Virus record (IMG/VR): IMGVR_UViG_3300025626_000128 | Span: 1-23,854 of that record | Length of the DNA stretch: 23,854 nt | Source of the DNA: a virus | Strand: one strand, 5' to 3' | Part shown: positions 601 to 16,138 of the stretch, piece by piece | Layout: every line of letters starts with the position of its first letter | How positions within the stretch are numbered: position 1 is the first letter of the stretch | Notes under the pieces: model-generated | Told to the model about the DNA's origin: nothing | Database searches by the model: none | What the model saw: only the letters and a program-made list of their open reading frames with translations | Made by a program: the position numbers and the translations under genes

Positions 601-604
601 CCTG
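593..604. repeat. 12-bp perfect palindrome overlapping the lysozyme stop
   Basis: CAGGTTAACCTG reads identically on both strands. It includes the lysozyme TAA (598-600) and ends 10 bp before the -35 box of the promoter at 615. It has no loop or U-tract, so it is not a normal terminator. A regulator binding site is possible, but chance occurrence cannot be excluded. Confidence 0.3.
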
Positions 605-614
605 TAAATGTTTC

Positions 615-643
615 TTGACTTAAATTACTAAAACCGATATAAT
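615..643 (+). promoter_or_regulatory. Sigma-70-type promoter P1
   Basis: TTGACT at 615-620 is separated by 17 bp from a perfect TATAAT at 638-643. The preceding TTTC gives TTTCTTGACT, a weaker match to the AGTTCTTGAC upstream motif of the other five promoters. Transcription should begin near 650, practically at the ATG of the next gene (651), so the message may be leaderless. Confidence 0.8.
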
Positions 644-650
644 ATGTTTT

Positions 651-2703: not shown

Positions 2704-3229
2704 GGGTAAAAAGTATGATGGAGAGAAGCCAAGAATGCATTTGCTTCCTCCTAAATCAATGGTAGAAGTAGCAAAGGTATTAACATTCGGAGCAAAGAAG
2801 TACGATGAACATAATTGGAGAAAATTGGAAAACCTTCAGAATCGCTATACAAGTGGTGCTTTGCGTCATATTTTTGCTCATAACGATGGAGAGCAGTTAG
2901 ACGACGAAAGCGACCTTTCGCACCTAGCACACGCAATTTGTTGCTTATTATTTAAGTTGGAGATAGAATTAGAAAATGGCAGGAATGAAAAGAGTAAAGA
3001 AGAAAGACCACGAGAATCTAACATCGGAGAATATTCAGCGAGTTATCAGCTTGCTCCAGCCCACTTCTACGGATCAGAAGCCTATAACAAAGAAGGCGGC
3101 TTGCGAGATGCTGAATATAAGTTACAATACAACGCGCCTGGACTTGATCCTGTCGGAATTTCTAGATCGACAGGAATACGTACTGAGAAGAAAAAACCAA
3201 AACCGTGGAAAAGCAGCGAGTACGAGTGA
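2696..3229 (+). CDS. dATP/dGTP diphosphohydrolase N-terminal-like protein (DUF5664) with an overprinted tail
   Basis: Residues 1-95 match a domain I know as DUF5664, also called dATP/dGTP diphosphohydrolase N-terminal: KYDGEKPRMHLLPPK, then VLTFGAKKYDEHNW, LRHIFAHNDGEQLDDESDLS and HLAHAICCLLFKLE. The ExxD-like acidic and histidine pattern suggests an all-alpha nucleotide-pyrophosphatase-like fold. Activity on nucleotides is inferred from the family name and from thyX next door, not shown. The domain ends almost exactly where the next gene starts (2976), but this frame stays open for about 83 more codons, entirely overlapping that gene in a different frame. The tail is Lys, Glu and Tyr rich with no recognised domain. 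GTG 2696 is the start and overlaps the end of thyX by 8 bp. Confidence 0.85.
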   Translation: MSEGKKYDGEKPRMHLLPPKSMVEVAKVLTFGAKKYDEHNWRKLENLQNRYTSGALRHIFAHNDGEQLDDESDLSHLAHAICCLLFKLEIELENGRNEKSKEERPRESNIGEYSASYQLAPAHFYGSEAYNKEGGLRDAEYKLQYNAPGLDPVGISRSTGIRTEKKKPKPWKSSEYE

Positions 3230-3674
3230 GATTCAGGAAACAGTACAAGATTATCTAAGTGGTGATAATATAAGTGGTATTGCTAAATACTTATATAGAT
3301 CTCCTTCTTTTGTAAAGAATATCCTAGATAGAGTAGGAGTACCGCAACGTCCCCCGTCCGCTGAGGATAGAAGGATGCCAGCATTTCTACCAGATAACTG
3401 TATCTCAGAGGACTTTACAGCAGGAGAGATTGTATGGTCTGCAAAATACCATTCTCCGGCAGTTATAGATAAAAAATACGATGATCCCTTGTACTTACAG
3501 AAGTATGGTAGTACTGCGTATCAGATTTATATATTTGAAAAAGATTCAGACGATCAAGATTATCTTGCTAAAGCAGGAAAAGGCGGTTTCTATGCGTCTA
3601 GTCTGGCCTATGATTTAGGAAAACTCAGCCATCTAGCAGCATTAGGAATTGATTTAAAAAAGCAAATAAGCTAA
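2976..3674 (+). CDS. HTH DNA-binding protein, putative phage transcription regulator
   Basis: This 232-aa protein is basic at its start (MAGMKRVKKKDHE). Residues 16-60 hold a helix-turn-helix-like segment (VISLLQ..., KPITKKAACEMLNISYNTTRL), and a second HTH-like block lies at about 84-125 (TVQDYLSGDNISGIAKYLYR, then SPSFVKNILDRVGVPQRP). A C-terminal domain contains GEIVWSAKYHSPA and YGSTAYQIYIFE. I recognise this overall pattern from other tailed phages, where it is annotated as hypothetical or as an HTH regulator. DNA binding is well supported by the two HTH-like units; the target is unknown. ATG 2976 is a plausible start with GGAG at 2959-2962; ATG 2985 is an alternative. The first 254 bp overlap the preceding gene. 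Confidence 0.82.
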   Translation: MAGMKRVKKKDHENLTSENIQRVISLLQPTSTDQKPITKKAACEMLNISYNTTRLDLILSEFLDRQEYVLRRKNQNRGKAASTSEIQETVQDYLSGDNISGIAKYLYRSPSFVKNILDRVGVPQRPPSAEDRRMPAFLPDNCISEDFTAGEIVWSAKYHSPAVIDKKYDDPLYLQKYGSTAYQIYIFEKDSDDQDYLAKAGKGGFYASSLAYDLGKLSHLAALGIDLKKQIS

Positions 3675-4425: not shown

Positions 4426-4621
4426 TATGTGGACACACTTTTGTACAGTTAAAGAGACTGTTATGGATACTGAGATAGGTTCCGCGTGCTCGTGGTGTCC
4501 CGCAGAAGAAAAAACAGAGATTGCATACCAAGGATTGTACTGGGCGTATCCTCTACAGAAATATATGAGATGGCCTGAATATATGCAATATTACTACTGG
4601 CTTGACAAAAAAAGTTCTTGA
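4391..4621 (+). CDS. Unknown aromatic- and cysteine-containing 76-aa protein
   Basis: ATG 4391 is preferred because AGGAAGGA (4382-4389) precedes it; in-frame ATGs at 4376, 4418 and 4430 are alternatives. ATG 4430 gives MWTHFCTVKETV with no clear ribosome site. The product has cysteines in THFC and CSWC and a C-terminal half very rich in Tyr and Trp (YQGLYWAYPLQKYMRWPEYM). I do not recognise a family. The stop TGA (4619-4621) lies inside the TTGACA -35 box of the next promoter, so the gene and the regulatory region share bases. Confidence 0.6.
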   Translation: MNLNGKPEMVNSMWTHFCTVKETVMDTEIGSACSWCPAEEKTEIAYQGLYWAYPLQKYMRWPEYMQYYYWLDKKSS

Positions 4622-4656
4622 CATGAATGTCAAATTCAATTATAATAGTTGTCAAG
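4601..4656. promoter_or_regulatory. Four symmetric TTGACA half-sites around promoter P2 (putative operator)
   Basis: TTGACA occurs at 4602-4607 and 4618-4623; its reverse complement TGTCAA occurs at 4628-4633 and 4650-4655. The inner pair forms a 16-bp inverted repeat, TTGACATGAATGTCAA (4618-4633), centred just downstream of the -35 box. The outer pair extends to 7 bp (CTTGACA and TGTCAAG). One half-site is the -35 box itself. The arrangement looks like a regulator site superimposed on a promoter, but no protein is identified. Confidence 0.5.
4618..4646 (+). promoter_or_regulatory. Sigma-70-type promoter P2
   Basis: AGTTCTTGACA with TTGACA at 4618-4623, a 17-bp spacer and perfect TATAAT at 4641-4646. 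Predicted initiation is near 4653, giving a leader of about 20 nt before ATG 4672. It overlaps the last codons of the upstream gene. Confidence 0.9.
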
Positions 4657-4671
4657 AAAGAGAGGAAACCA

Positions 4672-5112
4672 ATGGGCTACCGATTTTACATGCAACAACT
4701 TGAAGCAACAGGACAAGCTCCTGGATTAAATAACACTAACAAAAGGAAAAGAAAAATGGCGTGGGACGACGACAAGAAAGCAGCAGTTATCGAAGCATAC
4801 GAGAACGCTGAACCAACCCCCGAAACTTCAATGGAAATCGTAAAAGATATCGCTGATAACTTTAATGAGTCACCTAACGGTGTTCGTATGGTACTCAGCA
4901 AAGCCGGAGTATATATTAAGAAAACTCCAGCAGCATCTGGCGGTACAAAAGCCGCAGGCGGTGCTAGTACACGAGTTTCCAAGGCTGGAGCACAAGAAGC
5001 ACTCATCGCAGCTTTGACCGATGCAGGTCAAGAAGTTGACGAAGATGTAGTATCAAAACTAACTGGTAAAGCAGCACAGTATTTTTCTGGAGTGATTGCA
5101 GCCCTCAACTAA
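4672..5112 (+). CDS. HTH/SANT-like DNA-binding protein with a basic, glycine/alanine-rich linker
   Basis: The protein is 146 aa from ATG 4672, or 118 aa from ATG 4756 (MAWDDDKKAAVIEAYENAEP). Both starts have a ribosome site: AGAGGA (4661-4666) and AAGGA (4743-4747). The core is a compact helical domain ending in NESPNGVRMVLSKAGVYIKK, the same helix-turn-helix pattern (S-x-x-G/S-V-R/K-x-x-L) found four times in the protein at 7573. A linker rich in Ala, Gly, Lys and Thr follows, then a C-terminal helical domain (AQEALIAALTDAGQEVDEDV, then VSKLTGKAAQYFSGVIAAL). Related short proteins occur in other phages as I recall, with unknown function. It lies behind strong promoter P2 and looks codon-optimised, suggesting abundance. 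Nucleoid-like or regulatory DNA binding is inference. Confidence 0.75.
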   Translation: MGYRFYMQQLEATGQAPGLNNTNKRKRKMAWDDDKKAAVIEAYENAEPTPETSMEIVKDIADNFNESPNGVRMVLSKAGVYIKKTPAASGGTKAAGGASTRVSKAGAQEALIAALTDAGQEVDEDVVSKLTGKAAQYFSGVIAALN

Positions 5113-5137
5113 GTTCCGCTCTCCATGTAGTTAGTGC

Positions 5138-5153
5138 AGCAAAAGATTTTGCT
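5138..5153 (+). terminator. Weak hairpin in the 5113-5176 gap
   Basis: AGCAAAAGATTTTGCT is self-complementary (6-7 bp stem, 2-4 nt loop). It lies 26 bp after the preceding stop and 13 bp before the next ribosome site. It is AU-rich and followed by AAACC, not a U-tract, so it is at best a weak terminator or a processing site. Confidence 0.25.
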
Positions 5154-5176
5154 AAACCTACTAAGAAGGAGATTTT

Positions 5177-5443
5177 GTGAACAAAGAGGAACTAGCATCA
5201 TTAGTAACTGAGTATGGTGATGCTATAATCACATATCGAAGTGAAAATTCCAGAAAACTAAAGTACAATGTCTGTACATTAGATTTTACTACACCATATG
5301 TAGCAGAGAAGAAAAACCGGGCGAAAGAGTCTTACGGGACTCTTTTGCTCTTTTGTTGGGATACAGATTCGTATAGACTTCTCAAACCTGGGAACGTAAC
5401 TAGCGTTGTACCCCTGTCTTCCATCCTTAGAAACGAGGTGTAA
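5177..5443 (+). CDS. Small SH3-barrel-like protein (DUF2693-like)
   Basis: This 88-aa protein starts at GTG 5177 behind a good ribosome site, AAGGAG (5166-5171). The short N-terminal helix (NKEELASLVTEYG) is followed by strands AIITYRSENSRKLKYNVCTL and LLLFCWDTDSYRLLKPGNVTS, then VVPLSSIL. This is the DUF2693-like arrangement: helix, ..V.Y/F.., charged turn, ..C-T-L, then the W-D-x-x-x-x-x-x-R/L strand and the exposed V-x-S. It is probably a distant relative of the protein at 3699, but sequence identity is low. It may be a small regulatory or nucleic-acid-binding factor; no function is established. The next gene starts 1 bp after its stop. Confidence 0.65.
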   Translation: MNKEELASLVTEYGDAIITYRSENSRKLKYNVCTLDFTTPYVAEKKNRAKESYGTLLLFCWDTDSYRLLKPGNVTSVVPLSSILRNEV

Positions 5444-5444
5444 C

Positions 5445-5744
5445 ATGGAACTTCATGAAGCACCTGCAGTGTATGAGAAAGTTATACACTACAACGAAGC
5501 TAAGGAACTGCAAGTACGTCTAACAATCAATACCTTTAGGGGTATTGAGTACCTGCACGTAAGGAAGTATTATTTAGATTTTACAGAGGAGTGGAAGCCC
5601 TCTCCCGAGGGTGTAGCTATGGAGTTGGATTTCAACAACTCTCGTGAGCTATTTTCAGGACTCCTAGAAATATTATCATTGGCAGAATCCAAAGAGATCA
5701 TAGAAGAACACTTTAAAGATTATATAGACGAAATCTATAAATAG
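5445..5744 (+). CDS. PC4/p15-like ssDNA-binding protein
   Basis: ATG 5445 with GAGG (5435-5438) gives a 99-aa protein; the in-frame TTG at 5406 is rejected because it lies inside the previous gene. Residues 18-70 follow the PC4 transcriptional coactivator fold: KELQVRLTINTFRGIEYLHV, then RKYYLDFTEEWKPSPEGVAM and SRELFSGLLEIL, matching the family plan of strand, R-x-Y-Y, W-x-P-x-x-x-G and a closing helix. PC4-like proteins bind ssDNA and unpaired promoter DNA and act in transcription or repair. In phages such proteins are commonly of unknown role. It closes the cluster of small DNA-binding genes at 2976-5744, and its stop is embedded in the upstream motif of promoter P3. Confidence 0.75.
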   Translation: MELHEAPAVYEKVIHYNEAKELQVRLTINTFRGIEYLHVRKYYLDFTEEWKPSPEGVAMELDFNNSRELFSGLLEILSLAESKEIIEEHFKDYIDEIYK

Positions 5745-5747
5745 TTC

Positions 5748-5776
5748 TTGACTTTCCCTGGTATTGTCTGTATAAT
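5748..5776 (+). promoter_or_regulatory. Sigma-70-type promoter P3
   Basis: AATAGTTCTTGACT with TTGACT at 5748-5753, a 17-bp spacer and TATAATATA from 5771. Initiation near 5783 gives a leader of about 19 nt before ATG 5802. It drives the first ligase half. Confidence 0.9.
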
Positions 5777-5801
5777 ATACAATATTCCAGTGAGAGTTTA
5801 T

Positions 5802-6734
5802 ATGAAAGATTTTTTAGATAAGGCAAGTAAACATTATTATGAAGGTACTCCTATTATCTCCGATGCAGAGTTTGACTCTTTGGCAGATAAGTTTGGCTAC
5901 AATAGCGTGGGTTACACAGTAACCGATGGTATTCCCCACCTTTATAAAATGTACTCCTTACAAAAAGTCTTCTCACGTGCAGACTTACCATCAGATATTG
6001 ATGATTATGTTTGTACTCCCAAGCTGGACGGGGCAGCAGTGTCCATTCTATATGTTAATGGTATATTTGCTTTGGGCCTCACACGAGGCGACGGTAACAT
6101 TGGACGAGACATAACTAAGAAATTGCGGGCTTTAGTCCCGAACACAATCCCATTAAAAGAGGTCATCCAAATCACCGGCGAAGTAGTTGCCCCTAAAAGT
6201 ATCCCTAACTCTAGAAACTATGCTTCTGGTGCTTTGAATCTCAAAGACATGGAAGAGTTTGTAGAAAGGGATATAACTTTCGTAGCTTATGATATTAACC
6301 ACAGTGTACAAGAACCAGGACGATTATATGAACAGCAAACTTTATCTATTCTTAGGGATTTCGGTTTTTACGAAGTTAGTACGTTCGATACTGATAATTA
6401 CCCTACTGATGGTCTTGTATACAGACTAAATAACTGCGATAAGTTTGATAGAATGGGATTTACGTCCCACCATCCTAGAGGAGCAGTAGCTCTGAAGGAA
6501 GAGAAAGATGGTAAAATTACGACTTTAATAGACGTAGTATGGCAAGTAGGTAAGAGCGGGGTTGTTAGCCCCGTGGCCTTACTTGAGCCTGTCGACATAG
6601 ACGGTGCTATCGTTTCTCGCGCTACTCTACATAATATAGAGTACATACGCAGTCTGAATTTAGAGATAGGCTGCAGTGTTGAGGTTATTCGTAGTGGTGA
6701 GATCATACCTCGGATTTTACGACGTGTGGAATAA
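5802..6734 (+). CDS. ligA: NAD-dependent DNA ligase, adenylation and OB-fold part (subunit A)
   Basis: From ATG 5802 (GAGAG at 5792-5796 as ribosome site) the product is 310 aa. Residues 10-26 keep the NMN-binding domain Ia pattern (YYEGTPIISDAEFDSL). The nucleotidyltransferase motifs follow: catalytic Lys74 in CTPKLDGAAV, TRGDGNIGRDIT, GEVVAPKS, TDGLVYRLN and RGAVALK. The OB-fold motif set is at the C-terminus: VVWQVGKSGVVSPVALLEPV, SRATLHN and RSGEIIPRI. The zinc-finger, HhH and BRCT domains of a normal LigA (about 670 aa) are absent here and lie in the next gene. The pair should seal nicks in lagging-strand DNA using NAD+. T5 also has NAD ligase in two genes. The upstream frame from TTG 5748 overlaps the promoter and is not the start. 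Confidence 0.93.
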   Translation: MKDFLDKASKHYYEGTPIISDAEFDSLADKFGYNSVGYTVTDGIPHLYKMYSLQKVFSRADLPSDIDDYVCTPKLDGAAVSILYVNGIFALGLTRGDGNIGRDITKKLRALVPNTIPLKEVIQITGEVVAPKSIPNSRNYASGALNLKDMEEFVERDITFVAYDINHSVQEPGRLYEQQTLSILRDFGFYEVSTFDTDNYPTDGLVYRLNNCDKFDRMGFTSHHPRGAVALKEEKDGKITTLIDVVWQVGKSGVVSPVALLEPVDIDGAIVSRATLHNIEYIRSLNLEIGCSVEVIRSGEIIPRILRRVE

Positions 6735-6757
6735 GTACACCATTGAAAAAATAGTTC

Positions 6758-6786
6758 TTGACAGAAATCTTAAAATCTCGTATAAT
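6758..6786 (+). promoter_or_regulatory. Sigma-70-type promoter P4 between the ligase halves
   Basis: AATAGTTCTTGACA with TTGACA at 6758-6763, a 17-bp spacer and TATAATATA from 6781. Initiation near 6793 leaves about 23 nt before GTG 6816. It sits in the 81-bp gap separating the two ligase genes. Confidence 0.92.
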
Positions 6787-6815
6787 ATATTCTCAATTTC
6801 AAGGAGAGCCCTTTA

Positions 6816-7571
6816 GTGCAAACTATTCAAGCCCCAACTAACTGCCCTAGTTGTAGTTCGTTACTTGATTGGTCGAACGATCTACTGTACTGTAGAAGTT
6901 CTCAATGTTCTGCTCAGAAGCAAAAGAAAGTTGAACACTTCGCCAAGACCCTTAAAATCAAAGGACTTGGCCCTAGTGCAGTCAACAAACTAGGCCTGAC
7001 AGATATTGATCAGATCTACTCTCTTAGTAGAGAGGAAATCGCTGAAGGGTTATCTTCCGAGAAATTGGCAGAAAAATTGTATGCAGAGATTAAAAACTCA
7101 GAGGCAGCCCCTCTTAACGCAGTACTGGCTGCTTTTAGCATTCCTTTGATCGGAAAGACTGCAAGTGACAAACTCTCTAAAATAATTACTAATATTACTG
7201 AGATAAATGAGAGCAGTTGTAAACAAGCAGGTCTTGGACCAAAAGCTACTGAAAACTTATTGGAATGGCTACATAGAGATTTCTATTCTTTTTATGATGG
7301 ATATCTCCCTTTTGATTACAAATTTGATACCCCTCTTCAAAAAGAAGAGATAGGCATCGTATGTATTAGTGGTAAACTTACAAGTTTTAAAACTAAGGCA
7401 TTAGCGACACAAGCCCTAGAACATAAAGGATATGTTGTGAAATCAAGTTTGACAAAGGATGTTACAATATTAGTAAACGAGAGCGGGGTAGAATCCGCAA
7501 AAACAACACAGGCCAGGACTTCTGGCGTAATAATCATTGAAAATCTATTAGATTTACTTGGAGAACAATAA
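6816..7571 (+). CDS. ligB: NAD-dependent DNA ligase, zinc-finger, HhH and BRCT part (subunit B)
   Basis: This 251-aa protein starts at GTG 6816 behind AAGGAGA (6801-6807). It holds the C-terminal domains of bacterial LigA: a four-cysteine zinc finger (Cys10, Cys13, Cys26, Cys31), helix-hairpin-helix repeats (IKGLGPSAVNKLGL at about 49-62 and a second, weaker set ending near GLGPKATENLLEWL), and a BRCT domain from about residue 176 (GIVCISGKLTSFKTKA, then LEHKGYVVKSSLTKDVTILV). It has no nucleotidyltransferase motifs, so it should act only with the product of the preceding gene by binding DNA around the nick. The symbol follows T5 usage and is unrelated to E. coli LigB. The two halves are not in one frame and have a promoter between them, so this is a true split rather than a simple frameshift. 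Confidence 0.92.
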   Translation: MQTIQAPTNCPSCSSLLDWSNDLLYCRSSQCSAQKQKKVEHFAKTLKIKGLGPSAVNKLGLTDIDQIYSLSREEIAEGLSSEKLAEKLYAEIKNSEAAPLNAVLAAFSIPLIGKTASDKLSKIITNITEINESSCKQAGLGPKATENLLEWLHRDFYSFYDGYLPFDYKFDTPLQKEEIGIVCISGKLTSFKTKALATQALEHKGYVVKSSLTKDVTILVNESGVESAKTTQARTSGVIIIENLLDLLGEQ

Positions 7572-7572
7572 T

Positions 7573-8298
7573 ATGGCATTGCCAAAATGGACCGAAGAAC
7601 GTACCGAAGAGTTGACCAACTTTGTCGGTGACGAATCACCAATCTCTCAAGCAACTGTTGCAGAAGCAGCAACTCAGCTTGAAACTTCAACACGATCAGT
7701 TTCTAGTAAACTGCGTAAAATGGGCTTCGACGTAGAACTTGCATCAGCATCTTCTGTTCGAACCTTCTCTCCTGAACAGGAAGCTACTTTGGCTTCTTTT
7801 GTACAGGACAACAGTGGTGAGTATACTTATGCTCAGATCGCTGACCACTTTGACGGCGGAGCTTTCTCTGCTAAGTCAATCCAAGGTAAGATCCTGTCTA
7901 TGGAACTGACCGACAATGTAAAGCCTGCTCCTAAAGTAGAGACTGTACGTACTTATTCTGTAGAAGAAGAAGAGACTTTTGTCTCAATGGTACAAGACGG
8001 TGCTTTCGTAGAAGCAATCGCTGACGCTCTTGATCGCAGTGTAAACAGTGTTCGTGGTAAGGCTCTTAGCCTTCTTCGCTCTGGCGATATCGACGCTATT
8101 CCACGTCAAGAGCACACCAAAAGTGCAACTAAAGAAGATCCTTTAGCAGACCTTGGTGACATCTCAGCTATGACTGTAGATACAATCGCTGAAGCCATTG
8201 GCAAAACTGCTCGCGGTGTTAAGACTATGTTGACTCGTCGTGGTTTGGTTGCGGCCGACTATGATGGTGCATCTAAGAAAGAAAAAGCTGCAGGCTAA
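7573..8298 (+). CDS. Multi-repeat HTH/SANT-like DNA-binding protein
   Basis: ATG 7573 with GGAG (7560-7563) gives 241 aa; the in-frame TTG 7558 lies in the end of ligB. Four related helical units can be seen at about residues 5-51, 63-112, 126-171 and 198-226. The first three begin with W/F/Y-T/S-x-E-x-x-E-x-x-x-x-F-V, like SANT/Myb helix 1. All end in a recognition-helix-like segment: STRSVSSKLRKMG, SAKSIQGKILSM, SVNSVRGKALSLL and TARGVKTMLTRRGL. The last resembles SPNGVRMVLSKAG in the protein at 4672. Function is unknown; a DNA-coating, origin-binding or regulatory role is inference. Codon use (many GAC, CGT, GGT, GCT codons) looks biased towards high expression compared with neighbours. 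A stable hairpin follows. Confidence 0.8.
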   Translation: MALPKWTEERTEELTNFVGDESPISQATVAEAATQLETSTRSVSSKLRKMGFDVELASASSVRTFSPEQEATLASFVQDNSGEYTYAQIADHFDGGAFSAKSIQGKILSMELTDNVKPAPKVETVRTYSVEEEETFVSMVQDGAFVEAIADALDRSVNSVRGKALSLLRSGDIDAIPRQEHTKSATKEDPLADLGDISAMTVDTIAEAIGKTARGVKTMLTRRGLVAADYDGASKKEKAAG

Positions 8299-8304
8299 TA
8301 CAAT

Positions 8305-8324
8305 AGCGACCCTTCGGGGTCGCT
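8305..8324 (+). terminator. UUCG-tetraloop hairpin, probable terminator or RNA stabiliser
   Basis: AGCGACCC (8305-8312), loop TTCG, GGGTCGCT (8317-8324): a perfect 8-bp stem closed by the very stable C(UUCG)G tetraloop, 7 bases after the stop at 8298. The tail AATCTTTATAATCTT is U-rich but not a continuous U-tract, so termination may be partial. It could equally protect the 3' end of the upstream message. Confidence 0.75.
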
Positions 8325-8350
8325 AATCTTTATAATCTTCGGGGGAAGTT

Positions 8351-9703
8351 TTGAATATTGCGAGTGCTTTAATAAAGCAAGTTCTTGTTCTACAGGATTT
8401 TGAGACCTGGACGTCCGTTCGCAAGGATTATTTGCCAAATGAGTTTCACACCCTTTTTGGTGTGATTGATAAGCATGCAGATAAATTTCACAAACTTCCT
8501 ACTCTTGAAGATTTAAAGTTTGAGATACGCGATCCTGGAACTCTAGAAAAGGTTTACGCCCTTCAGGGTATCGAGGTAGATGTAGATGCATTTAGCCTTC
8601 TACAGTATCTTAAAAATGAATATACTCAAAAGGAGATTCTCAACTCCTTAGAGTCTTATGTTGATAATTCTGTAGCTTTTGAAGATGCAGAAGAATCAGT
8701 TACACACTTACATCAGATCGTATTAGATATTGAGAAGAAAGTAGATCTAGAACTACCTCAGGAGAGTATGCAACGCATTACTCTCTTTGAGTCTGATGAT
8801 GATATTGCCAAGTATTTACCGCTAGGTTTGAATACCGAGTATGATTACGATATACAGTTCTCCCCCCGAGATCTTGTACTTATCGGTGGTCGTCGCGGGG
8901 CTGGTAAGTCTATGACTTGTGCAAATATCGCTCACAACGTCTTTGAGCAAGGTAGGTCGGCTATGTATTTCACTATTGAGATGGATAGTCGATCTATTCT
9001 TCAAAGAGTTTGCGCTATCGCAACTGGAATTCCTCACGCTCGCCTCCGTACCAAAAATCTTGGTGTGGTAGAGTGGGAAAAGGTTGCAGACTGGTGGGCC
9101 AACCGTTTTACGGAAGGTCAGAAAAAATTACAAGAATACAAACAACACCGGGATTTCGATGAATTTCACCATAGTCTAACAACTAATTGCGAGCTTCTCC
9201 CGACTCAGCAAGTAGATGTTATCTATGATCCTTCTTTGAACTTAGCAAAGATTAAGGCAGAAATGGATAAGAAAGTGAAGGCCCTTAATGTCGGTGTTGT
9301 CCTTGTAGACTATATTAACCAGGTTAAAAAATCTGCTATTCCGCACAGGGCGGGACAGTATGATTGGACAGAGCAAATTGAAGTGAGTAAAGCCCTCAAA
9401 AGTATGGCACAGGAGTATGACTGCACAGTTATCTCTCCATATCAAACAGACGCGAGCGGAGAAGCGCGCTTTGCTAAAGGTATACTAGATGCTGCTGACG
9501 CGGCCTATTCTCTTGAGACTTATGACCAAGAGGATTCTTGTATTACTTTTAACTGCGTGAAGATGCGTAACTCCGCTCAGCGCTCTTTTACTTCTAGCAT
9601 GAACTGGGAGACCCAAAAGATTGGCCCAGAGAGTGCTGCTACTCCACAGGAGAGAGAAGACTCTTCTATGAAGACCGGCGAAGATATTGACGACGTTGCT
9701 TAA
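8351..9703 (+). CDS. Replicative DNA helicase, DnaB/gp41-like
   Basis: The 450-aa product is a RecA-fold 5'-3' helicase that unwinds DNA ahead of the polymerase and works with the primase at 10170. It has a helical N-terminal domain (about 1-140), Walker A GRRGAGKS (180-187), the catalytic glutamate in YFTIEM (Glu210), Walker B VVLVD (316-320), and the DnaB motif 3/4 region with VISPYQTDASGEARFAKG followed by AADAAYSLE. Length fits phage DnaB proteins. The start is TTG 8351, with GGGGGAAG (8341-8348) unusually close upstream. No ATG gives a full N-terminus, so TTG is likely but not certain. The C-terminus is acidic and hydrophilic (EDIDDVA). It lies downstream of the hairpin at 8305 and has no obvious promoter of its own. 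Confidence 0.93.
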   Translation: MNIASALIKQVLVLQDFETWTSVRKDYLPNEFHTLFGVIDKHADKFHKLPTLEDLKFEIRDPGTLEKVYALQGIEVDVDAFSLLQYLKNEYTQKEILNSLESYVDNSVAFEDAEESVTHLHQIVLDIEKKVDLELPQESMQRITLFESDDDIAKYLPLGLNTEYDYDIQFSPRDLVLIGGRRGAGKSMTCANIAHNVFEQGRSAMYFTIEMDSRSILQRVCAIATGIPHARLRTKNLGVVEWEKVADWWANRFTEGQKKLQEYKQHRDFDEFHHSLTTNCELLPTQQVDVIYDPSLNLAKIKAEMDKKVKALNVGVVLVDYINQVKKSAIPHRAGQYDWTEQIEVSKALKSMAQEYDCTVISPYQTDASGEARFAKGILDAADAAYSLETYDQEDSCITFNCVKMRNSAQRSFTSSMNWETQKIGPESAATPQEREDSSMKTGEDIDDVA

Positions 9704-9712
9704 AAATAGTTC

Positions 9713-9741
9713 TTGACATGTGCTCGTAAATCCTGTATAAT
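9713..9741 (+). promoter_or_regulatory. Sigma-70-type promoter P5
   Basis: AATAGTTCTTGACA with TTGACA at 9713-9718, a 17-bp spacer and TATAATATA from 9736. Initiation near 9748 gives a leader of about 20 nt before ATG 9768. The upstream motif starts only 2 bases after the helicase stop codon. Confidence 0.92.
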
Positions 9742-9767
9742 ATACTTTCATATTTAAGAGGTTTCTA

Positions 9768-10070
9768 ATGATTATTCAAGGCAGCATCGGACATACCTAT
9801 TCTGGTAGGAAGCGTAAGAAAATATCAAAAGTAAAGAAAGCACAAAAGCCTTTTATCCCACTAGAGAAATCTGAACAGGTTTTCAAAATCGCCCCCTGGG
9901 CAAAAAGAGATAAAGTATATAAGTCTGCTGCTCTTACTGCACCCAAGACCTTTATACCTGACGATTCTTATAAAAAAGAAATTAGTAAAAATTATACTGT
10001 AGCCATCGCCTTTAACAAGGGAGCGTATCAAGTTATTCCTAACTCTGATATTAAGCATATAGGTAAGTAA
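9768..10070 (+). CDS. Unknown basic 100-aa protein
   Basis: ATG 9768 with AAGAGG (9756-9761) follows promoter P5. The N-terminus is strongly basic (SGRKRKKISKVKKAQKPF), and later conserved-looking stretches are FKIAPWAKRDKVY and NYTVAIAFNKGAYQVIPNSD. I have seen this layout (basic N-terminus, a PWAKR-like motif, then AIAxNKGAYQVI) in other phage replication regions but know no function. Nucleic-acid or protein binding next to helicase and primase is plausible from charge and position only. Its TAA overlaps the next ATG. Confidence 0.75.
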   Translation: MIIQGSIGHTYSGRKRKKISKVKKAQKPFIPLEKSEQVFKIAPWAKRDKVYKSAALTAPKTFIPDDSYKKEISKNYTVAIAFNKGAYQVIPNSDIKHIGK

Positions 10071-10255
10071 TGCATCGACATACTCAGATTGCACAGAGAC
10101 AAAGATTGATGCGACAACAAAGTCGCAGGCGACAAATCAAACAAGCACAAGCACGTAGGTTGGCATTTAATGAATGTGGAAGAGTTATTGATTCAGAAGG
10201 GGATACAGTACATCCCGAAGGGGAAGGACTACGTAGTCCGTTGCCTAAATCCTGA
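10070..10255 (+). CDS. Very basic Arg/Gln-rich small protein
   Basis: ATG 10070 overlaps the previous stop by one base, and the frame encodes 61 aa: a cluster of Arg, Gln and His (IAQRQRLMRQQSRRRQIKQ) followed by a neutral tail. The last 86 bases overlap the primase gene in another frame. Without it, 100 bp before the primase would be empty, which is unusual in this window, and the overlapping start supports translation by coupling. Low-complexity composition makes it hard to test by eye. I do not recognise a family. Confidence 0.5.
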   Translation: MHRHTQIAQRQRLMRQQSRRRQIKQAQARRLAFNECGRVIDSEGDTVHPEGEGLRSPLPKS

Positions 10256-10997
10256 GCATGATGATAGTAATCCAAGTATGCGAGTCGATCAGATTGATGG
10301 TCGGTTCAATTGCTTCGCCTGTGAGTTTAAAGGTAATCTATTCTCCTTCTATGGAGAGCAAGTATCAGGTTTACAACTCAAGCGCGATATCCTAGTCAAA
10401 AAGATTCAGGAAAAACGTGCAGAGAATATAGGTTTGAACTTTCCTAAAGATTACGTCCCTTATATTGGTAATTGGAGAAATATAAAACCACAAACGTATA
10501 AAACCTTTGAGGCATTTGAGCATGTCGGCAAAGACTATATTAGTCGTATCAATTTTCCTATTCGAGATATTTCTGGAAAGATAGTAGCTTTTCAAGGCCG
10601 TCACACAGCTGGAGGAACCCCTAAGTATAAGTTCTCTCCTCCTGGGGCTAAGCTACCTCTTTTTCCACAAGTATTTCCCCGTCTTGGAGAAATAATTCTT
10701 GTAGAAGGTATTTATGATGTACTAAACCTACATGATAAAGGACTCACAAACTCTGTTTGCTGCTTCGGCACAAACAACATAAATGAAGATAAGCTGTTAA
10801 TGCTCTCTATGAAAGGTGCCACCAAGATAGGTGTCTTCTTTGACGGAGATGAAGCAGGACAAAAAGCAGCGGAAAATGTTAAAGTAATGTGCGAGAAAAT
10901 TGGTCTCTTTACTAGGAACATCCATATGAAAGAATTGGATCCTGGTGCACTTACCGAAACTCAAGTTAAAAAACTGGAGAAAAGATTATATGCCTAA
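10170..10997 (+). CDS. DNA primase, DnaG-like with zinc finger and Toprim domains
   Basis: This 275-aa protein makes RNA primers for Okazaki fragments. The zinc-binding domain has Cys25, His30, Cys48 and Cys51 (CLNPEHDDSNPSM then FNCFAC), the CHC2-type pattern of DnaG. The Toprim catalytic core follows: Glu179 in ILVEGIYDVLNL and the DxD pair Asp225/Asp227 in GVFFDGDEAG, which bind the metals. It is much shorter than bacterial DnaG (about 580 aa) and has no helicase-binding C-terminal domain, as in several phage primases. ATG 10170 is chosen because the zinc domain follows directly; only a weak AGG precedes it. It overlaps the polymerase start by 8 bp. Confidence 0.93.
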   Translation: MNVEELLIQKGIQYIPKGKDYVVRCLNPEHDDSNPSMRVDQIDGRFNCFACEFKGNLFSFYGEQVSGLQLKRDILVKKIQEKRAENIGLNFPKDYVPYIGNWRNIKPQTYKTFEAFEHVGKDYISRINFPIRDISGKIVAFQGRHTAGGTPKYKFSPPGAKLPLFPQVFPRLGEIILVEGIYDVLNLHDKGLTNSVCCFGTNNINEDKLLMLSMKGATKIGVFFDGDEAGQKAAENVKVMCEKIGLFTRNIHMKELDPGALTETQVKKLEKRLYA

Positions 10998-13275
10998 AGT
11001 TGCATTAGTAGAAACTAAACCTAGCAGAACAGACTTTCGAAATGAGTTTGATGGAGCCTTTGACTTTGATCAATTTCAGCTCTGCTCGGATTCTAGTATA
11101 AAGAAAGTATTAAAGCGAGACTGTGATATTGATATGGATCCTGATAACTATGAATGGGTAATTCTAGTAGGTAGTGATGCATTGAAGTATTTTACAAAGA
11201 TTAATTCGGTCACTGAATACTCGGGTAAGAAAGTAGAAGATAAGTTCTTACCTGTCATTAATCCTGGCATGTTAAAATTCAAGCCGGAAGCTCGTAAGAC
11301 CTGGGAATCTTCCAAGGAAAATATTATTAAGTACATTAATGGTGAGATTGAAGATGTTATCATTGATGAAAGTATTGCTCGCGGTATCAATGACACTGCC
11401 GAAGCAAAGGCGTGGATACAAGGAGCTATAGACTCAGATAGTGCATATATTGCTCTTGACTCTGAGACTACTGCCCTGTACCCGCGTAACGGACATATAT
11501 TAGGAATATCTATGTCTTATAACGGGGAAAGTGGAGCCTACATTAATACTGAATGCTTTGACCAAGAAATCGAAGATATGCTACGTCAACTGTTTCTCAG
11601 TAGGAAAGTAATCTTCCACAATGCAAAGTTCGATATGGCATTCTTTGAGTATCATTTCAACTTTGAATTCCCTGACTTCGAGGACACAATGTTGCTCCAT
11701 TACCTCATAGATGAGAATCCAGGAGGGCATGGTCTAAAGCCATTATCCTTGAAGTATACTCCTTTTGGTGATTATGAAAAACCAATGTATGATTGGATTG
11801 ATCAGCACAAAAGAGCAAACGGGCTCAATGCAGGTAGCTTCACATGGGATATGATTCCATTTGACGTTATGAAAACATACGCGGCTATGGATGCTGTATG
11901 TACTTTTCTACTGTACGAGAAATTTGTTAAAATTAAGAAGAACCCAAAACTTTGTTGGATTTACGACAATATTTTGATTCCTGGCTGCAGGTTTCTGAAG
12001 GAGACTCAAGATAACGGTGTTCCGTTTGATCGTACTCGACTACAGGTATCTCAGGGTCTAATGCAGGATAACATTGATGACGCTATTAAAGAACTCTACA
12101 ATTTCAAGGAGGTGGCCAAATTTGAAGAGTTTCAGGGTAAGGATTTTAATCCTAACTCTACCGTTCAGCTTCGTACTTTGTTATTCGACTTTATTGGTCT
12201 GAAACCTACAGGTAAAAAGACTGGTACAGGCGCAAATTCAACAGATGCAGAAGTCTTACAAGAATTAGGAGAAAAGCATGAAGTTCCAAAGCATATTCTT
12301 AATATTCGCCAGAAAAGCAAGATTAAGAATACATACCTTGACAAGATCATACCTCAGCTTGATAGGGATAGTAGGTTACGCACAAATTTCAACCTACATG
12401 GAACTACTTCTGGTCGCCTGTCTTCTAGTGGTAAACTAAATATGCAGCAGCTTCCTCGCGACAATCCCATTGTAAAAGGGTGTATTCGTGCTCAGGAAGG
12501 AAATAAAATCGTTGCAATGGATTTAACCACAGCAGAAGTCTACGTCGCTGCGAAGCTCTCATCTGATGAAGAGCTGATGAATGTATTTCGTTCCGGAGGC
12601 AATTTTCATAGTTCGATTGCTAAAACAGTTTTCAAGTTACCTTGTGATGTGGCTGATGTTGCAGAGCTCTACGGAACTCAACGTCAAGCTGCAAAAGCTG
12701 TTACTTTCGGTATTATGTATGGTGCAGGGCCTCGGAAAATCAGTGAACAAGTTACCAAAGATTCTGGTAAATATTTTGGTGTCGGCGAAGCAAAAGACGT
12801 AATTGATGATTATTTCAGAGAGTTCCATAAGCTAAAAAGCTGGATCGAAATGAACCAGAAGTTTATTGAACAAAATGGATTCATCTATAGCTTCTTTGGT
12901 AGAAAGAGACGTCTACCTAATGTTGCCTCTGACGACGCTAGTATTCGAAGTCACAGTATCCGTTCAGGGCTAAACTTTTTAGTTCAGTCCGCCGCTTCTG
13001 ATATTAATTTATTGGGTGCTATTGATATGGGTATGTATATTAAGTCGAAGAAGATGAAGTCTCGCATCTTTGCCTTAGTACATGACTCTATTCTTGCAGA
13101 AGTGCCAGAAGAAGAAATAGAAGAGTATAATGAAAGGTTACAACACTTTATTCAACTTGATCGTGGTCTTAATATCTCAGGAGCCCCAGTAGGGTGTGAC
13201 TTTGATATTGGAGAAGACTACTCCATGGGCAAATTCGAGAAGATGTATGGTAGTTACTTACCGGAAGATCACTAA
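10990..13275 (+). CDS. DNA polymerase, family A, with 3'-5' proofreading domain
   Basis: From ATG 10990 (GGAG at 10976-10979) the product is 761 aa. Proofreading motifs: Exo I ALDSET (Asp157, Glu159), Exo II FHNAKFD (Asn211, Asp215) and Exo III YAAMD (Asp301). Polymerase motifs: GTTSGRLSSS, motif A MDLTTAEVYVAA (Asp511), motif B RQAAKAVTFGIMYG (Lys569, Phe573, Tyr577) and motif C VHDS (Asp699). Phe573 corresponds to E. coli Phe762, associated with discrimination against dideoxynucleotides. Motif A differs from the common DYSQIELR, and motif C has Ser in place of Glu; I recall similar motifs in T5-type polymerases. There is no 5' nuclease domain; that activity is a separate gene at 19927. The upstream frame from 10945 lies in the primase gene and is not used. 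Confidence 0.95.
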   Translation: MPKVALVETKPSRTDFRNEFDGAFDFDQFQLCSDSSIKKVLKRDCDIDMDPDNYEWVILVGSDALKYFTKINSVTEYSGKKVEDKFLPVINPGMLKFKPEARKTWESSKENIIKYINGEIEDVIIDESIARGINDTAEAKAWIQGAIDSDSAYIALDSETTALYPRNGHILGISMSYNGESGAYINTECFDQEIEDMLRQLFLSRKVIFHNAKFDMAFFEYHFNFEFPDFEDTMLLHYLIDENPGGHGLKPLSLKYTPFGDYEKPMYDWIDQHKRANGLNAGSFTWDMIPFDVMKTYAAMDAVCTFLLYEKFVKIKKNPKLCWIYDNILIPGCRFLKETQDNGVPFDRTRLQVSQGLMQDNIDDAIKELYNFKEVAKFEEFQGKDFNPNSTVQLRTLLFDFIGLKPTGKKTGTGANSTDAEVLQELGEKHEVPKHILNIRQKSKIKNTYLDKIIPQLDRDSRLRTNFNLHGTTSGRLSSSGKLNMQQLPRDNPIVKGCIRAQEGNKIVAMDLTTAEVYVAAKLSSDEELMNVFRSGGNFHSSIAKTVFKLPCDVADVAELYGTQRQAAKAVTFGIMYGAGPRKISEQVTKDSGKYFGVGEAKDVIDDYFREFHKLKSWIEMNQKFIEQNGFIYSFFGRKRRLPNVASDDASIRSHSIRSGLNFLVQSAASDINLLGAIDMGMYIKSKKMKSRIFALVHDSILAEVPEEEIEEYNERLQHFIQLDRGLNISGAPVGCDFDIGEDYSMGKFEKMYGSYLPEDH

Positions 13276-13741
13276 AATAAAGTTTCCAGCTTATTTACTG
13301 GAATCCTCGGACTGGCATGAACAAGACGGACTGTTGTTTGTAGAAAACAGATTATTGGATGATAAGAATATGCCAGGTAGCACACTTGGTCTGAGAAGGC
13401 TACAAACACCTTTTAGGGATTTATATCCTCTAAGAGCCTCTGTAGGTAGTCTTCTCGGTATTATCAAACAAAAGAACAAGACCTTCGTAGATAGTAAGGG
13501 AACTCCCTTTATTTACGAAAAAATTGAATACTGTGCTCTCAAATATTATAGAGTTCGTAAAATAGAACAAAAGGGACGTGCGTGTGTTCTATGGGTAAAG
13601 GGTGTTAGCCTTCCTTTTAAAATACCCCGCCCTCCTATGAATCAGCTTCAATGGGCGGGAATTTTGCATCGTAAGGGTATTCCTTGGATGCTATATGAGT
13701 ATTCAGACCATAAAAAGTCTGACACTCGAAGAAAAGTGTGA
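13247..13741 (+). CDS. Conserved phage protein of unknown function next to the polymerase
   Basis: ATG 13247 (MVVTYRKITKIKFPAYLLES) is chosen; it lies 29 bp inside the polymerase end with GAGAAG (13237-13242) before it. The 164-aa protein has blocks I recognise from other phage replication clusters: ESSDWHEQDGLLFVE, NMPGSTLGLRRLQTP, DSKGTPFIYEK, LWVKGVSLPFKIPRPP and a C-terminal SDTRRKV. No enzyme motif or membrane segment is evident; the pattern of short beta strands with conserved RPP suggests a small globular domain. I know of no assigned function. Position between polymerase and PhoH suggests a replication-linked role, which is inference only. Confidence 0.8.
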   Translation: MVVTYRKITKIKFPAYLLESSDWHEQDGLLFVENRLLDDKNMPGSTLGLRRLQTPFRDLYPLRASVGSLLGIIKQKNKTFVDSKGTPFIYEKIEYCALKYYRVRKIEQKGRACVLWVKGVSLPFKIPRPPMNQLQWAGILHRKGIPWMLYEYSDHKKSDTRRKV

Positions 13742-13748
13742 ATATTTT

Positions 13749-14408
13749 ATGGCAAGAAGAAATAGAACGCTAGCAGGTGCAGGTCTGACTTTATCAGAGA
13801 TTGAGCCTTTAACACAAAACCAAGTAGCCGCTTTCGAAAGTGATAAACATTTAGTTTTACACGGAGTTGCCGGCACAGGAAAGACCTTTATATCTTGTTA
13901 TTTAGCATTTGACGATATGATTAAGTCATCGTATAATAAGTTGATTATCATACGAAGTGCAGTGCCGACTAGAGATATAGGCTTTCTCCCAGGTAATGAG
14001 AAAGAAAAAAGTGCGATCTATGAAGAACCGTACAAAGATATATGTGTAGAATTGTTTCAACGAGGAGACGCATATGAGATACTAAAAACAAAAAGTCTAG
14101 TAAATTTTATGACTACTTCGTTTATTCGTGGTGTCACACTAAGAGACGCAGTAATTATAGTTGATGAGTGTCAAAACATGAGTTTTCATGAATTGGATTC
14201 AATTATTACTCGAGTTGGAGAAGAATGCAGAATTATCTTCTGTGGAGACTTCCGACAGGCTGATCTTAGTAAAAATGGACTAAAAGACTTTATTCGCATC
14301 GTTAAAGCAATGGATCAATTTGATTTAATTGACTTTGAGATCAAAGACATTGTACGGAGTGGCTTTGTTAAAGATTATATTACCGTAAAAACGAATCTGG
14401 GTTTATGA
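13749..14408 (+). CDS. phoH: PhoH-like P-loop ATPase
   Basis: This 219-aa protein from ATG 13749 starts MARRNRTLAGAGLTLSEIEP. An in-frame ATG at 13695 would add 18 residues and overlap the previous gene by 47 bp; neither start has a strong ribosome site, so the choice rests on where I recall relatives beginning. Walker A is GVAGTGKT (39-46), Walker B is VIIVDE in IIVDECQNMS (135-144), and the family motif FCGDFRQAD is at about 164-172. These identify PhoH, an ATPase related to the RecD/SF1 helicase core. PhoH is very common in marine phages, with uncertain function; RNA handling or helicase activity has been suggested. Its TGA overlaps the next ATG (ATGA). Confidence 0.92.
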   Translation: MARRNRTLAGAGLTLSEIEPLTQNQVAAFESDKHLVLHGVAGTGKTFISCYLAFDDMIKSSYNKLIIIRSAVPTRDIGFLPGNEKEKSAIYEEPYKDICVELFQRGDAYEILKTKSLVNFMTTSFIRGVTLRDAVIIVDECQNMSFHELDSIITRVGEECRIIFCGDFRQADLSKNGLKDFIRIVKAMDQFDLIDFEIKDIVRSGFVKDYITVKTNLGL

Positions 14409-15688
14409 AAGCAGTAATAAGTAACAGGATCTATCTAGAAGTAACGCAGGAGTATAAGGAGGTTCTTAGCAAAGAGCTTACTTATTCTATACCTACGTAC
14501 AACCCGAAAGATCCACCACAGATTATAAAGACTATGGTACGAATTCGTTCTGATCTAGTTAGTATACCTGTGGGAAGAATGGATCTAATCCCAGATGATT
14601 ACGAGATAATCGATAAGCGATTAATACTGCCGGAGGATTTCCCCGACTTTAGGTTCCCTTTGCGAGAAAGTCAGCAAGCTGTTTTTGACGAGATCGAAGA
14701 CAATGCTATAATTAACGCATGGGTAAGTTGGGGAAAGACTTTTACAGGTTTAGCTATTGCAGGTAAGCTTGGGCAGAAAACACTTGTTGTTACCCACACG
14801 GTTCCTTTAAGAAATCAGTGGGCAAAAGAGGTAGAAAAAGTCTATGGATTTAAACCAGGCATTATAGGCAGTGGTCACTTTGATCTTGAGCCTCCTATTG
14901 TAATTGGCAATACTCAGACTTTATACCGGAATATTGGCGAAGTGCAGAAGAAGTTCGGGACTATAATCTTGGATGAGATGCACCATGTATCGTCTCCAAC
15001 GTTCTCTAAAATAATTGATAGTAGCTATGCTAGATATAAGATAGGACTATCAGGGACTATAGAGAGAAAGGATGGCAAGCATGTGGTGTTTCGAGACTAT
15101 TTTGGGAGTAAGATCTTCAAACCCCCAAAAGAGAACTTTATGCCGCCTACCATTCATATACTCAGCAGCGAAGTTCGGTTTATGGATGGTGCTAATGTTC
15201 CTTGGGCTAATAGAGTGAATAATCTTACGAACAATGATGAATATCGACACACAGTTGCTATGCTTGCTGCGGCCTACGCCGCAAAAGGGCATAAAGTGCT
15301 GGTTGTGAGCGATCGAGTCCACTTTATGAAAGCCTGCGCCGAACTAGCAGGAGAGATTGCGACTAGTGTTACAGGTGAGCTATCGCATGAGGAGAGAGAA
15401 GAACGTATGTCTCTTATAACAAGTGGCAAAAAGAAGATCCTTTTTGGTACTCAAGCTATTTTTTCCGAGGGCATATCCTTGAATAGCTTAAGTTGCCTCA
15501 TTTTAGGTACACCTATTAATAACGAACCATTACTGACCCAGTTGATTGGGCGTGTCATACGAAAAGAAGAAAATAAAAAAGACCCGGTGATTATTGATAT
15601 ACACCTCAAGGGTAATACTGCAAGAAGACAGGCTTCTACGCGTATGGGACACTACATGAAACAGGGTTATCAAATCAAACAGCTATAA
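14405..15688 (+). CDS. SF2 DNA helicase, UvsW / T5 D10-like
   Basis: This 427-aa DExH-box helicase probably remodels branched DNA (replication forks, Holliday junctions, D-loops), as T4 UvsW and T5 D10 do. Motifs: Q-like/Ia region FPLRESQQAVFDE (84-96), motif I AWVSWGKT (105-112), Ia VVTHTVPLRNQW, motif II LDEMHH (189-194), motif III SGT (216-218), motif IV/V in VLVVSDRVHF and TQAIFSEGISL, and motif VI QLIGRVIRKEE. In motif I the usual first glycine of G-x-GKT is Ser108, which is noteworthy, although Gly110-Lys-Thr is intact. The gene is translationally coupled to phoH (ATGA). It is the first member of a D10 to D15-like gene series. Confidence 0.92.
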   Translation: MKAVISNRIYLEVTQEYKEVLSKELTYSIPTYNPKDPPQIIKTMVRIRSDLVSIPVGRMDLIPDDYEIIDKRLILPEDFPDFRFPLRESQQAVFDEIEDNAIINAWVSWGKTFTGLAIAGKLGQKTLVVTHTVPLRNQWAKEVEKVYGFKPGIIGSGHFDLEPPIVIGNTQTLYRNIGEVQKKFGTIILDEMHHVSSPTFSKIIDSSYARYKIGLSGTIERKDGKHVVFRDYFGSKIFKPPKENFMPPTIHILSSEVRFMDGANVPWANRVNNLTNNDEYRHTVAMLAAAYAAKGHKVLVVSDRVHFMKACAELAGEIATSVTGELSHEEREERMSLITSGKKKILFGTQAIFSEGISLNSLSCLILGTPINNEPLLTQLIGRVIRKEENKKDPVIIDIHLKGNTARRQASTRMGHYMKQGYQIKQL

Positions 15689-15699
15689 AAAAATAGTTC

Positions 15700-15728
15700 T
15701 TGACAACAAGGTTAAACTTAAGTATAAT
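15700..15728 (+). promoter_or_regulatory. Sigma-70-type promoter P6
   Basis: AATAGTTCTTGACA with TTGACA at 15700-15705, a 17-bp spacer and TATAATATA from 15723. It starts 2 bases after the helicase stop. Predicted initiation near 15735 lies downstream of ATG 15731, so translation should begin at ATG 15749. Confidence 0.92.
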
Positions 15729-15748
15729 ATATGTTCTTATTTGATTGG

Positions 15749-16138
15749 ATGAAAATTTATGACGCGTCACAGGGTAATGTGCGCGAGGTAGTACGTATTT
15801 TCCGGATGCTTGTCAGCAAGCAAATACCGGATAATCGTAAAGATCCTATTTATAAATATTCACATAAAGATTTTTCAGGGGTTAGCTTCATGCTGCACCC
15901 CGACGTTCTTCTATACCATTCTCATAAGTATACATATCGTGAGATAGCACAGTACATTTCGCTGTGTTCTTTTCGATCCGCTGTAGATTTTCTCAGCACA
16001 CAAGATACGACTTTAGATCTGATATTAGTACCAGGTTTAGAGCCGGAAACCATCATAAACAACAATAGGCTACTCATGATAGATGACGACAGAGTGTGTT
16101 TTCTATATGAAGAAGTCCCAGCAACGGAGATACATTAA
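15749..16138 (+). CDS. Unknown protein at the T5 D11 position
   Basis: ATG 15749 gives a 129-aa protein (MKIYDASQGNVREVVRIFRM). ATG 15731 is in frame but lies 2 bases after the -10 box, upstream of the expected transcript start. No good Shine-Dalgarno precedes ATG 15749. Recognisable phage-conserved features are FSGVSFMLHPDVLLYHSHKY, TYREIAQYISLCSFRSAVDF and the hydrophobic C-terminal RLLMIDDDRVCFLYEE. The protein looks alpha-helical with a final hairpin; there is no enzyme motif. In T5 the equivalent place between D10 and D12 is held by D11, also of unknown function as I recall. The end overlaps the next ATG (TAATG). Confidence 0.75.
   Translation: MKIYDASQGNVREVVRIFRMLVSKQIPDNRKDPIYKYSHKDFSGVSFMLHPDVLLYHSHKYTYREIAQYISLCSFRSAVDFLSTQDTTLDLILVPGLEPETIINNNRLLMIDDDRVCFLYEEVPATEIH

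Follow-up and report, generated by a model that had tools for sequence, protein, structure and literature searches.

Conserved promoters in an uncultured relative of phage T5 form a probable lineage-specific variant of the T5-type early promoter set

The window analysed here, a complete IMG/VR virus record of 23,854 bp, carries a repeated promoter block that is real and under selection. On present evidence its sequence and position are most readily explained as those of T5-type early promoters in a form specific to this lineage, and not as a new kind of system. The motif AGTTCTTGAC-N18-TATAATA occurs with zero mismatches at positions 4613, 5743, 6753, 9708 and 15695, and in a weaker copy with two mismatches at 610; a seventh match, with three mismatches, lies within a PhoH-like gene at 13904. 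These seven matches at up to three mismatches compare with a mean of 0.14 in shuffled sequence. The six strong copies (Table 1) are all on the plus strand with a 17-bp spacer and TATAATA, and the −35 hexamer is TTGACA or TTGACT in every case. The coordinates, spacer and −10 box given in the original prediction are correct at six of six sites. A chance origin of the motif was ruled out by the shuffles, by a reversed-pattern control and by a permuted motif. Rfam and tRNA scans of the record returned no matches.

Table 1. Promoters and associated features of the window (promoter sequences run from the bases ahead of the −35 hexamer to the −10 region)
Feature	Position	Strand	−35 start	Sequence or similarity	Context	T5 counterpart
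Promoter 1 (weak copy)	604..646	+	615	GTAAATGTTTC TTGACT N17 TATAATATG	precedes p651	
Promoter 2	4607..4649	+	4618	AAAAAAAGTTC TTGACA N17 TATAATAGT	precedes D3 homologue (start 4672)	P-N26
Promoter 3	5737..5779	+	5748	ATAAATAGTTC TTGACT N17 TATAATATA	precedes ligA (start 5802)	promoter annotated ahead of ligA
Promoter 4	6747..6789	+	6758	AAAAATAGTTC TTGACA N17 TATAATATA	ligA/ligB gap (ligB start 6816)	P-K28a/P-K28b
Promoter 5	9702..9744	+	9713	AAAAATAGTTC TTGACA N17 TATAATATA	3' of D6 helicase, 5' of p9768 (start 9768) and primase	none at helicase/p9768 junction
Promoter 6	15689..15731	+	15700	AAAAATAGTTC TTGACA N17 TATAATATA	3' of D10 helicase, at T5.125 homologue start	P31A/P31B
Terminator-like hairpin (strong)	8304..8325	+			after D5, before D6 helicase	
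D5 homologue	7558..8298	+		52% to T5 D5 over 196 aa; phrog_323 'transcriptional regulator, D5-like'		D5

Megablast matched the record to none of 50,697 phage records. The DNA polymerase shares about 43-44% identity with its top matches, which belong to T5-group phages of Vibrio, Aeromonas and enterobacteria, and the gene order is that of T5: D2, D3, T5.114, T5.115, ligA, ligB, D5, D6 helicase, primase and polymerase, continuing with D10, T5.125, D11, D12, D13, D14 and D15. A PhoH-like gene and p9768 are extra relative to the T5 block, and ribonucleotide reductase genes come next. The PhoH-like gene (13695-14408) lies between polymerase and D10; the PhoH annotated in the T5 group is found elsewhere, near ribonucleotide reductase. 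D2 was assigned to 2976-3674 via a shared family, which rules out p651, a phrog_624 DNA-binding protein, as the D2 counterpart. The record is thus an uncultured relative of phage T5, probably of marine origin to judge from the names of some related bins.

To follow the motif beyond the window, relatives were chosen by their DNA polymerase alone and not by promoter (58 loci). Their 92 distinct TTGAC[A/T]-N17-TATAAT sites were compared with 145 from viral loci without a homologue of the record's proteins, a generic sample that carries a small bias in leaving out a few AGTTC-bearing loci fetched earlier. Ahead of the −35 the relatives read AAAAATA[G/A]TTC, at 72-99% per position against 23-52% in the unrelated viral promoters. 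Counting back from the hexamer, AAATA at −9 to −5 stands at 84-99% (32-52% in the generic set) and TTC at −3 to −1 at 80-92% (23-43%), while TAGTTC is 80-98% fixed at most positions. This comparison with the 145 generic sites supports the original prediction that the upstream bases are conserved beyond what sigma-70 promoters generally show. Fisher p-values on these bases are overstated, as they take related sequences to be independent; identity among dereplicated relatives is the safer measure. It is 73-90% over the block from −11 to −1, against 39-53% in the spacer and 37-48% further upstream, which indicates that selection maintains the extension at each site.

Enrichment elsewhere, whose absence had been named beforehand as the first of the findings that would refute the prediction, was found: ten whole relative records hold 4 to 16 motif sites each, some outside the replication module, and the reversed pattern has no match in the same ten records. 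Among 71 distinct occurrences of AATANTTCTTGAC, TATAAT follows 17 bp on in 67 and 18 bp on in four. In the viral collection the motif is present at no fewer than 120 loci, at least, against one locus for a letter-permuted motif. Of 12 motif-rich records tested in which the stretch retrieved has no homologue, two encode the D10 helicase (72-75% identity); the other ten, without a D10 match, may be fragments or other phages.

We also considered that TA[G/A] might simply be the stop codon of the upstream gene. This is true only at some sites, such as ligA, where the upstream stop TAG is the TAG of AAATAG; at the D3 site (4618) the stop TGA of the upstream frame falls within TTGACA. AAATA nonetheless stays fixed at the D10 and ligA-ligB junctions, where the stop codon lies apart from it, and stop codons are therefore not the cause of the motif. 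The proposal that each promoter sits 0-17 bp after the previous stop is accordingly a loose description, from which the 4618, 5748 and 6758 sites deviate; at the last of these the upstream stop ends 23 nt 5' of the hexamer.

The promoters occupy fixed places in the genome. Scoring the strict core in relatives that show both flanking genes, it was present at the T5.115/ligA junction in 27 of 27, at ligA/ligB in 28 of 29, at helicase/p9768 in 25 of 25 and at D10/T5.125 in 39 of 39. The strict core was absent from twelve other junctions of the relatives, including ligB/D5, D5/helicase and primase/polymerase, and was found ahead of pol in none of 46. A promoter is also present at the promoter 1 junction in several relatives. 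Moreover, four of the six promoters lie, within a colinear block, at junctions where the T5 record annotates promoters (D3, ligA, ligA-ligB and D10-T5.125). That record places P-N25 ahead of D2, P-N26 ahead of D3, one promoter ahead of ligA, one ahead of pol, P-K28a and P-K28b between ligA and ligB, and P31A and P31B between D10 and T5.125. Seven more cultured T5-group phages have promoters at several matching places. Taken together, gene order and annotation indicate that the promoter positions date to an ancestor common with T5.

The A-tract is shared as well. At −10 to −7 before the hexamer, A reaches 81, 89, 97 and 75% in the T5 group and 76, 99, 97 and 96% in this lineage, in the same register. 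From −6 on the two sets diverge, the T5 group reading TTTNA then TTGCTA and this lineage TAGTTC then TTGACA. No TTGCTW sites were found in the record or in the relatives tested, and since the −35 is not TTGCT[A/T] we call the promoters of this lineage a variant, not a member, of the T5-type early promoter set. A single branch with 100/100 support divides the two promoter types in the polymerase tree, with the caution that L363 and L182 form long branches. The L182 polymerase (L182:10001-12265) is only 46% identical, and the promoters of L182 closely match those of L155 and L156; it is possible that its polymerase gene was replaced. While T5 already provides the promoter plan and the A-tract, the open literature yielded no instance of the TAGTTC-TTGACA variant, and none of the papers matching AGTTCTTGACA deals, by title and abstract, with phage promoters.

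We consider it likely that these are T5-type early/middle promoters of the sigma-70 kind, with a proximal UP element (a site for alpha-CTD) and a lineage-specific link to the −35. They would form the early/middle set of a T5-like replication module and be transcribed by the housekeeping RNA polymerase of the host, of sigma-70 type, with the A-tract at −46 to −42, the link TA[G/A]TTC at −41 to −36, then a near-perfect −35, TTGAC[A/T], 17 bp and TATAATATA. Sigma region 4 would read the −35 and region 2 the −10, and one alpha-CTD would bind the A-tract beside sigma region 4; the resulting promoters would be very strong, capturing host polymerase early in infection, and each would start a short unit. 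From the observed sequence, position, conservation and orthology we infer sigma-70 use, alpha-CTD contact, strength and early timing. It has been reported that host sigma-70 polymerase transcribes all T5 gene classes (PMC7472727), and that the T5 N25 promoter has an UP element and an A/T-rich spacer (PMC12464699). The proximal alpha-CTD consensus is AAAAAARNR at −46 to −38 (PMC2801614; position also given in PMC2613000). Scored against it, the lineage averages 6.6 of 9, the T5 group 5.4 and generic viral promoters 4.8, and the five main sites reach 6 to 8 of 9, a partial match. What counts against this reading is a −35 unlike that of the T5 class, and also TAGTTC, which is predicted neither by the UP consensus nor fully by sigma-70; host preference, the geometry of alpha-CTD and sigma, or a phage factor could explain it. 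TC ahead of TTGACA is a mild trend in E. coli promoters. The activator site or phage-modified polymerase signature proposed at the outset is possible and not the simplest explanation, given an A-tract at the UP position and in T5 register; TAGTTC itself lacks a standard explanation.

The promoter might instead be a mobile or copied cassette placed ahead of chosen genes, as had been suggested, and several near-identical copies of the core do occur within one genome. Yet the sites are orthologous: their junctions are constant in nearly all relatives with none elsewhere, no variation of insertion site was seen, and T5 has promoters at four matching junctions. The spacers, described in the original prediction as otherwise unrelated, are indeed site-specific, but in the relatives they lean towards A/T, with T at 83% at −17 and G at 76% at −13; the ligA site is nearly always TTGACT, a form specific to it. 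We therefore regard a mobile unit as highly improbable. A different possibility is that AAAAATAGTTC-TTGACA is the strong promoter form preferred by the host and adopted by any of its phages. Unrelated viral promoters show a mild trend in this direction (A 0.41-0.52 at −10 to −7, C 0.43 at −1), 30 of the 120 motif loci have, among the matches listed, no nearby homologue of the record's proteins, and D10 helicase was found in only two of 12 tested records of this kind. Against it, homologues of the record's proteins occur, among the matches listed, at 90 of 120 motif loci compared with 26 of 108 generic-promoter loci. A scan of cellular genomes gave 86 scattered matches, mostly in Firmicutes-type bins, plus phage contigs in inconsistently labelled bins; no marine host was enriched, and several of the marine cellular matches are such phage contigs. 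L324, L337, L340, L363 and L365, labelled Parcubacteria, Bacteroidetes, Aureispira and Porticoccaceae, carry the genes of this phage module and have the look of phage contigs sorted into bins, and the labels thus do not name the host. Host preference is possible, if doubtful, and as it is compatible with the T5-type reading the confidence given to each overlaps.

It is also conceivable, if unlikely, that a phage-encoded factor reads AATA[G/A]TTC beside the −35, either as an activator in contact with sigma region 4 or alpha-CTD or as a repressor that later shuts the promoters off. In favour of this, TAGTTC varies far less here than in generic promoters, and from one lineage to the other it changes jointly with the −35. 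Spx is a precedent for a partner that reads bases near −44 together with alpha-CTD (PMC2801614). The first candidate for such a trans factor would be the D5 homologue, since D5 is, according to the T5 record, a DNA-binding protein required for late transcription, and the mechanism by which T5 switches between gene classes, early to late, is stated to be unknown (PMC7472727). The record's D5 copy also has a weak Sigma70_r4 match, below the Pfam cut-off. However, with the −35 and −10 both at consensus an activator is not required, the block does not form an inverted repeat, and T5 has D5 as well but not TAGTTC. Were AATA[G/A]TTC nevertheless the site of a phage-encoded polymerase partner, such as the D5 homologue or an alpha-CTD-bound factor, with all the early promoters of the lineage rewritten along with it, an outcome to which we give a rather low probability, the two lineages would form a natural comparison in which to study how T5-like phages switch from early to late, a problem not yet solved.

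Several local features accompany the promoters. A leader of about 20 nt, as originally proposed, holds at four sites and fails at 15700 and 615. At 15700, transcription is expected to start at about 15735, downstream of the ATG at 15731. This codon, with which the T5.125 homologue begins, follows the TATAAT of promoter 6 by 2 nt (15723-15751), an arrangement kept in relatives, and the expected transcript therefore lacks it. Promoter 6 may serve D11 onwards, or the T5.125 homologue may be translated from upstream transcripts. At 615, ATG 651 is at about +1, and promoter 1 is predicted to give a leaderless p651 message (region 638-651), in close relatives too; other relatives have there a leader with a ribosome site. 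In the region 4618-4656 of promoter 2, TTGACAT-GA-ATGTCAA forms a perfect inverted repeat across the −35 and TTGTCAAG follows the −10; this may be an operator for D3, and is kept in only some relatives. Weak similarity (E 0.03 and 0.004) connects the homologues of D3 (4627-5112), D5 and T5.125 (15731-16138) with the T5 counterparts of one another, and the three perhaps share one small DNA-binding repeat; two of the three lie directly behind these promoters. The hairpin after D5 keeps its place in most relatives, with unrelated stem sequences. As it lies 5' of the D6 helicase, which has no promoter ahead of it, the helicase may depend on read-through.

Among known systems, the T4 MotA/AsiA middle promoters likewise make up a class of phage promoters marked by an additional conserved box close to the −35. 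In those promoters the box stands in for a poor −35, whereas in this lineage it sits ahead of a perfect one. Spx with alpha-CTD at B. subtilis trxB resembles the present case, by analogy only, in its fixed bases near −44 adjoining an A-tract, and differs in that here the −35 is consensus and there is no known partner protein. The proximal UP element agrees in position (−46 to −38) and A-tract; T at −41 and −38 mismatches its consensus, and the bases adjoining the −35 are far more fixed than an UP element requires. The motif is in addition a simple tag with which to find fragments of these uncultured phages.

The closest likeness is to the early promoters of T5 and other Demerecviridae (P-N25, P-N26, P-K28a/b, P31A/B), with four junctions, the A-tract register, the 17-bp spacer, TATAATAT and an A/T-rich spacer in common. 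In the T5-like phage AKFV33, 32 promoters have AAAAATT at −43, TTGCTw and TATAATA with 17-18 bp between them (PMC3326045). This lineage differs in having TA[G/A]TTC then TTGAC[A/T] where the Demerecviridae have TTTNA then TTGCT[A/T], and in having an extra promoter ahead of p9768 and none ahead of pol. It thus keeps the T5 promoter positions and A-tract, but the link and the −35 differ together throughout its promoters. Setting the two promoter sets side by side distinguishes a common part (A-tract, spacing, −10) from a lineage part (TAGTTC-TTGACA or TTTNA-TTGCTA) and points to where host or phage factors should be sought.
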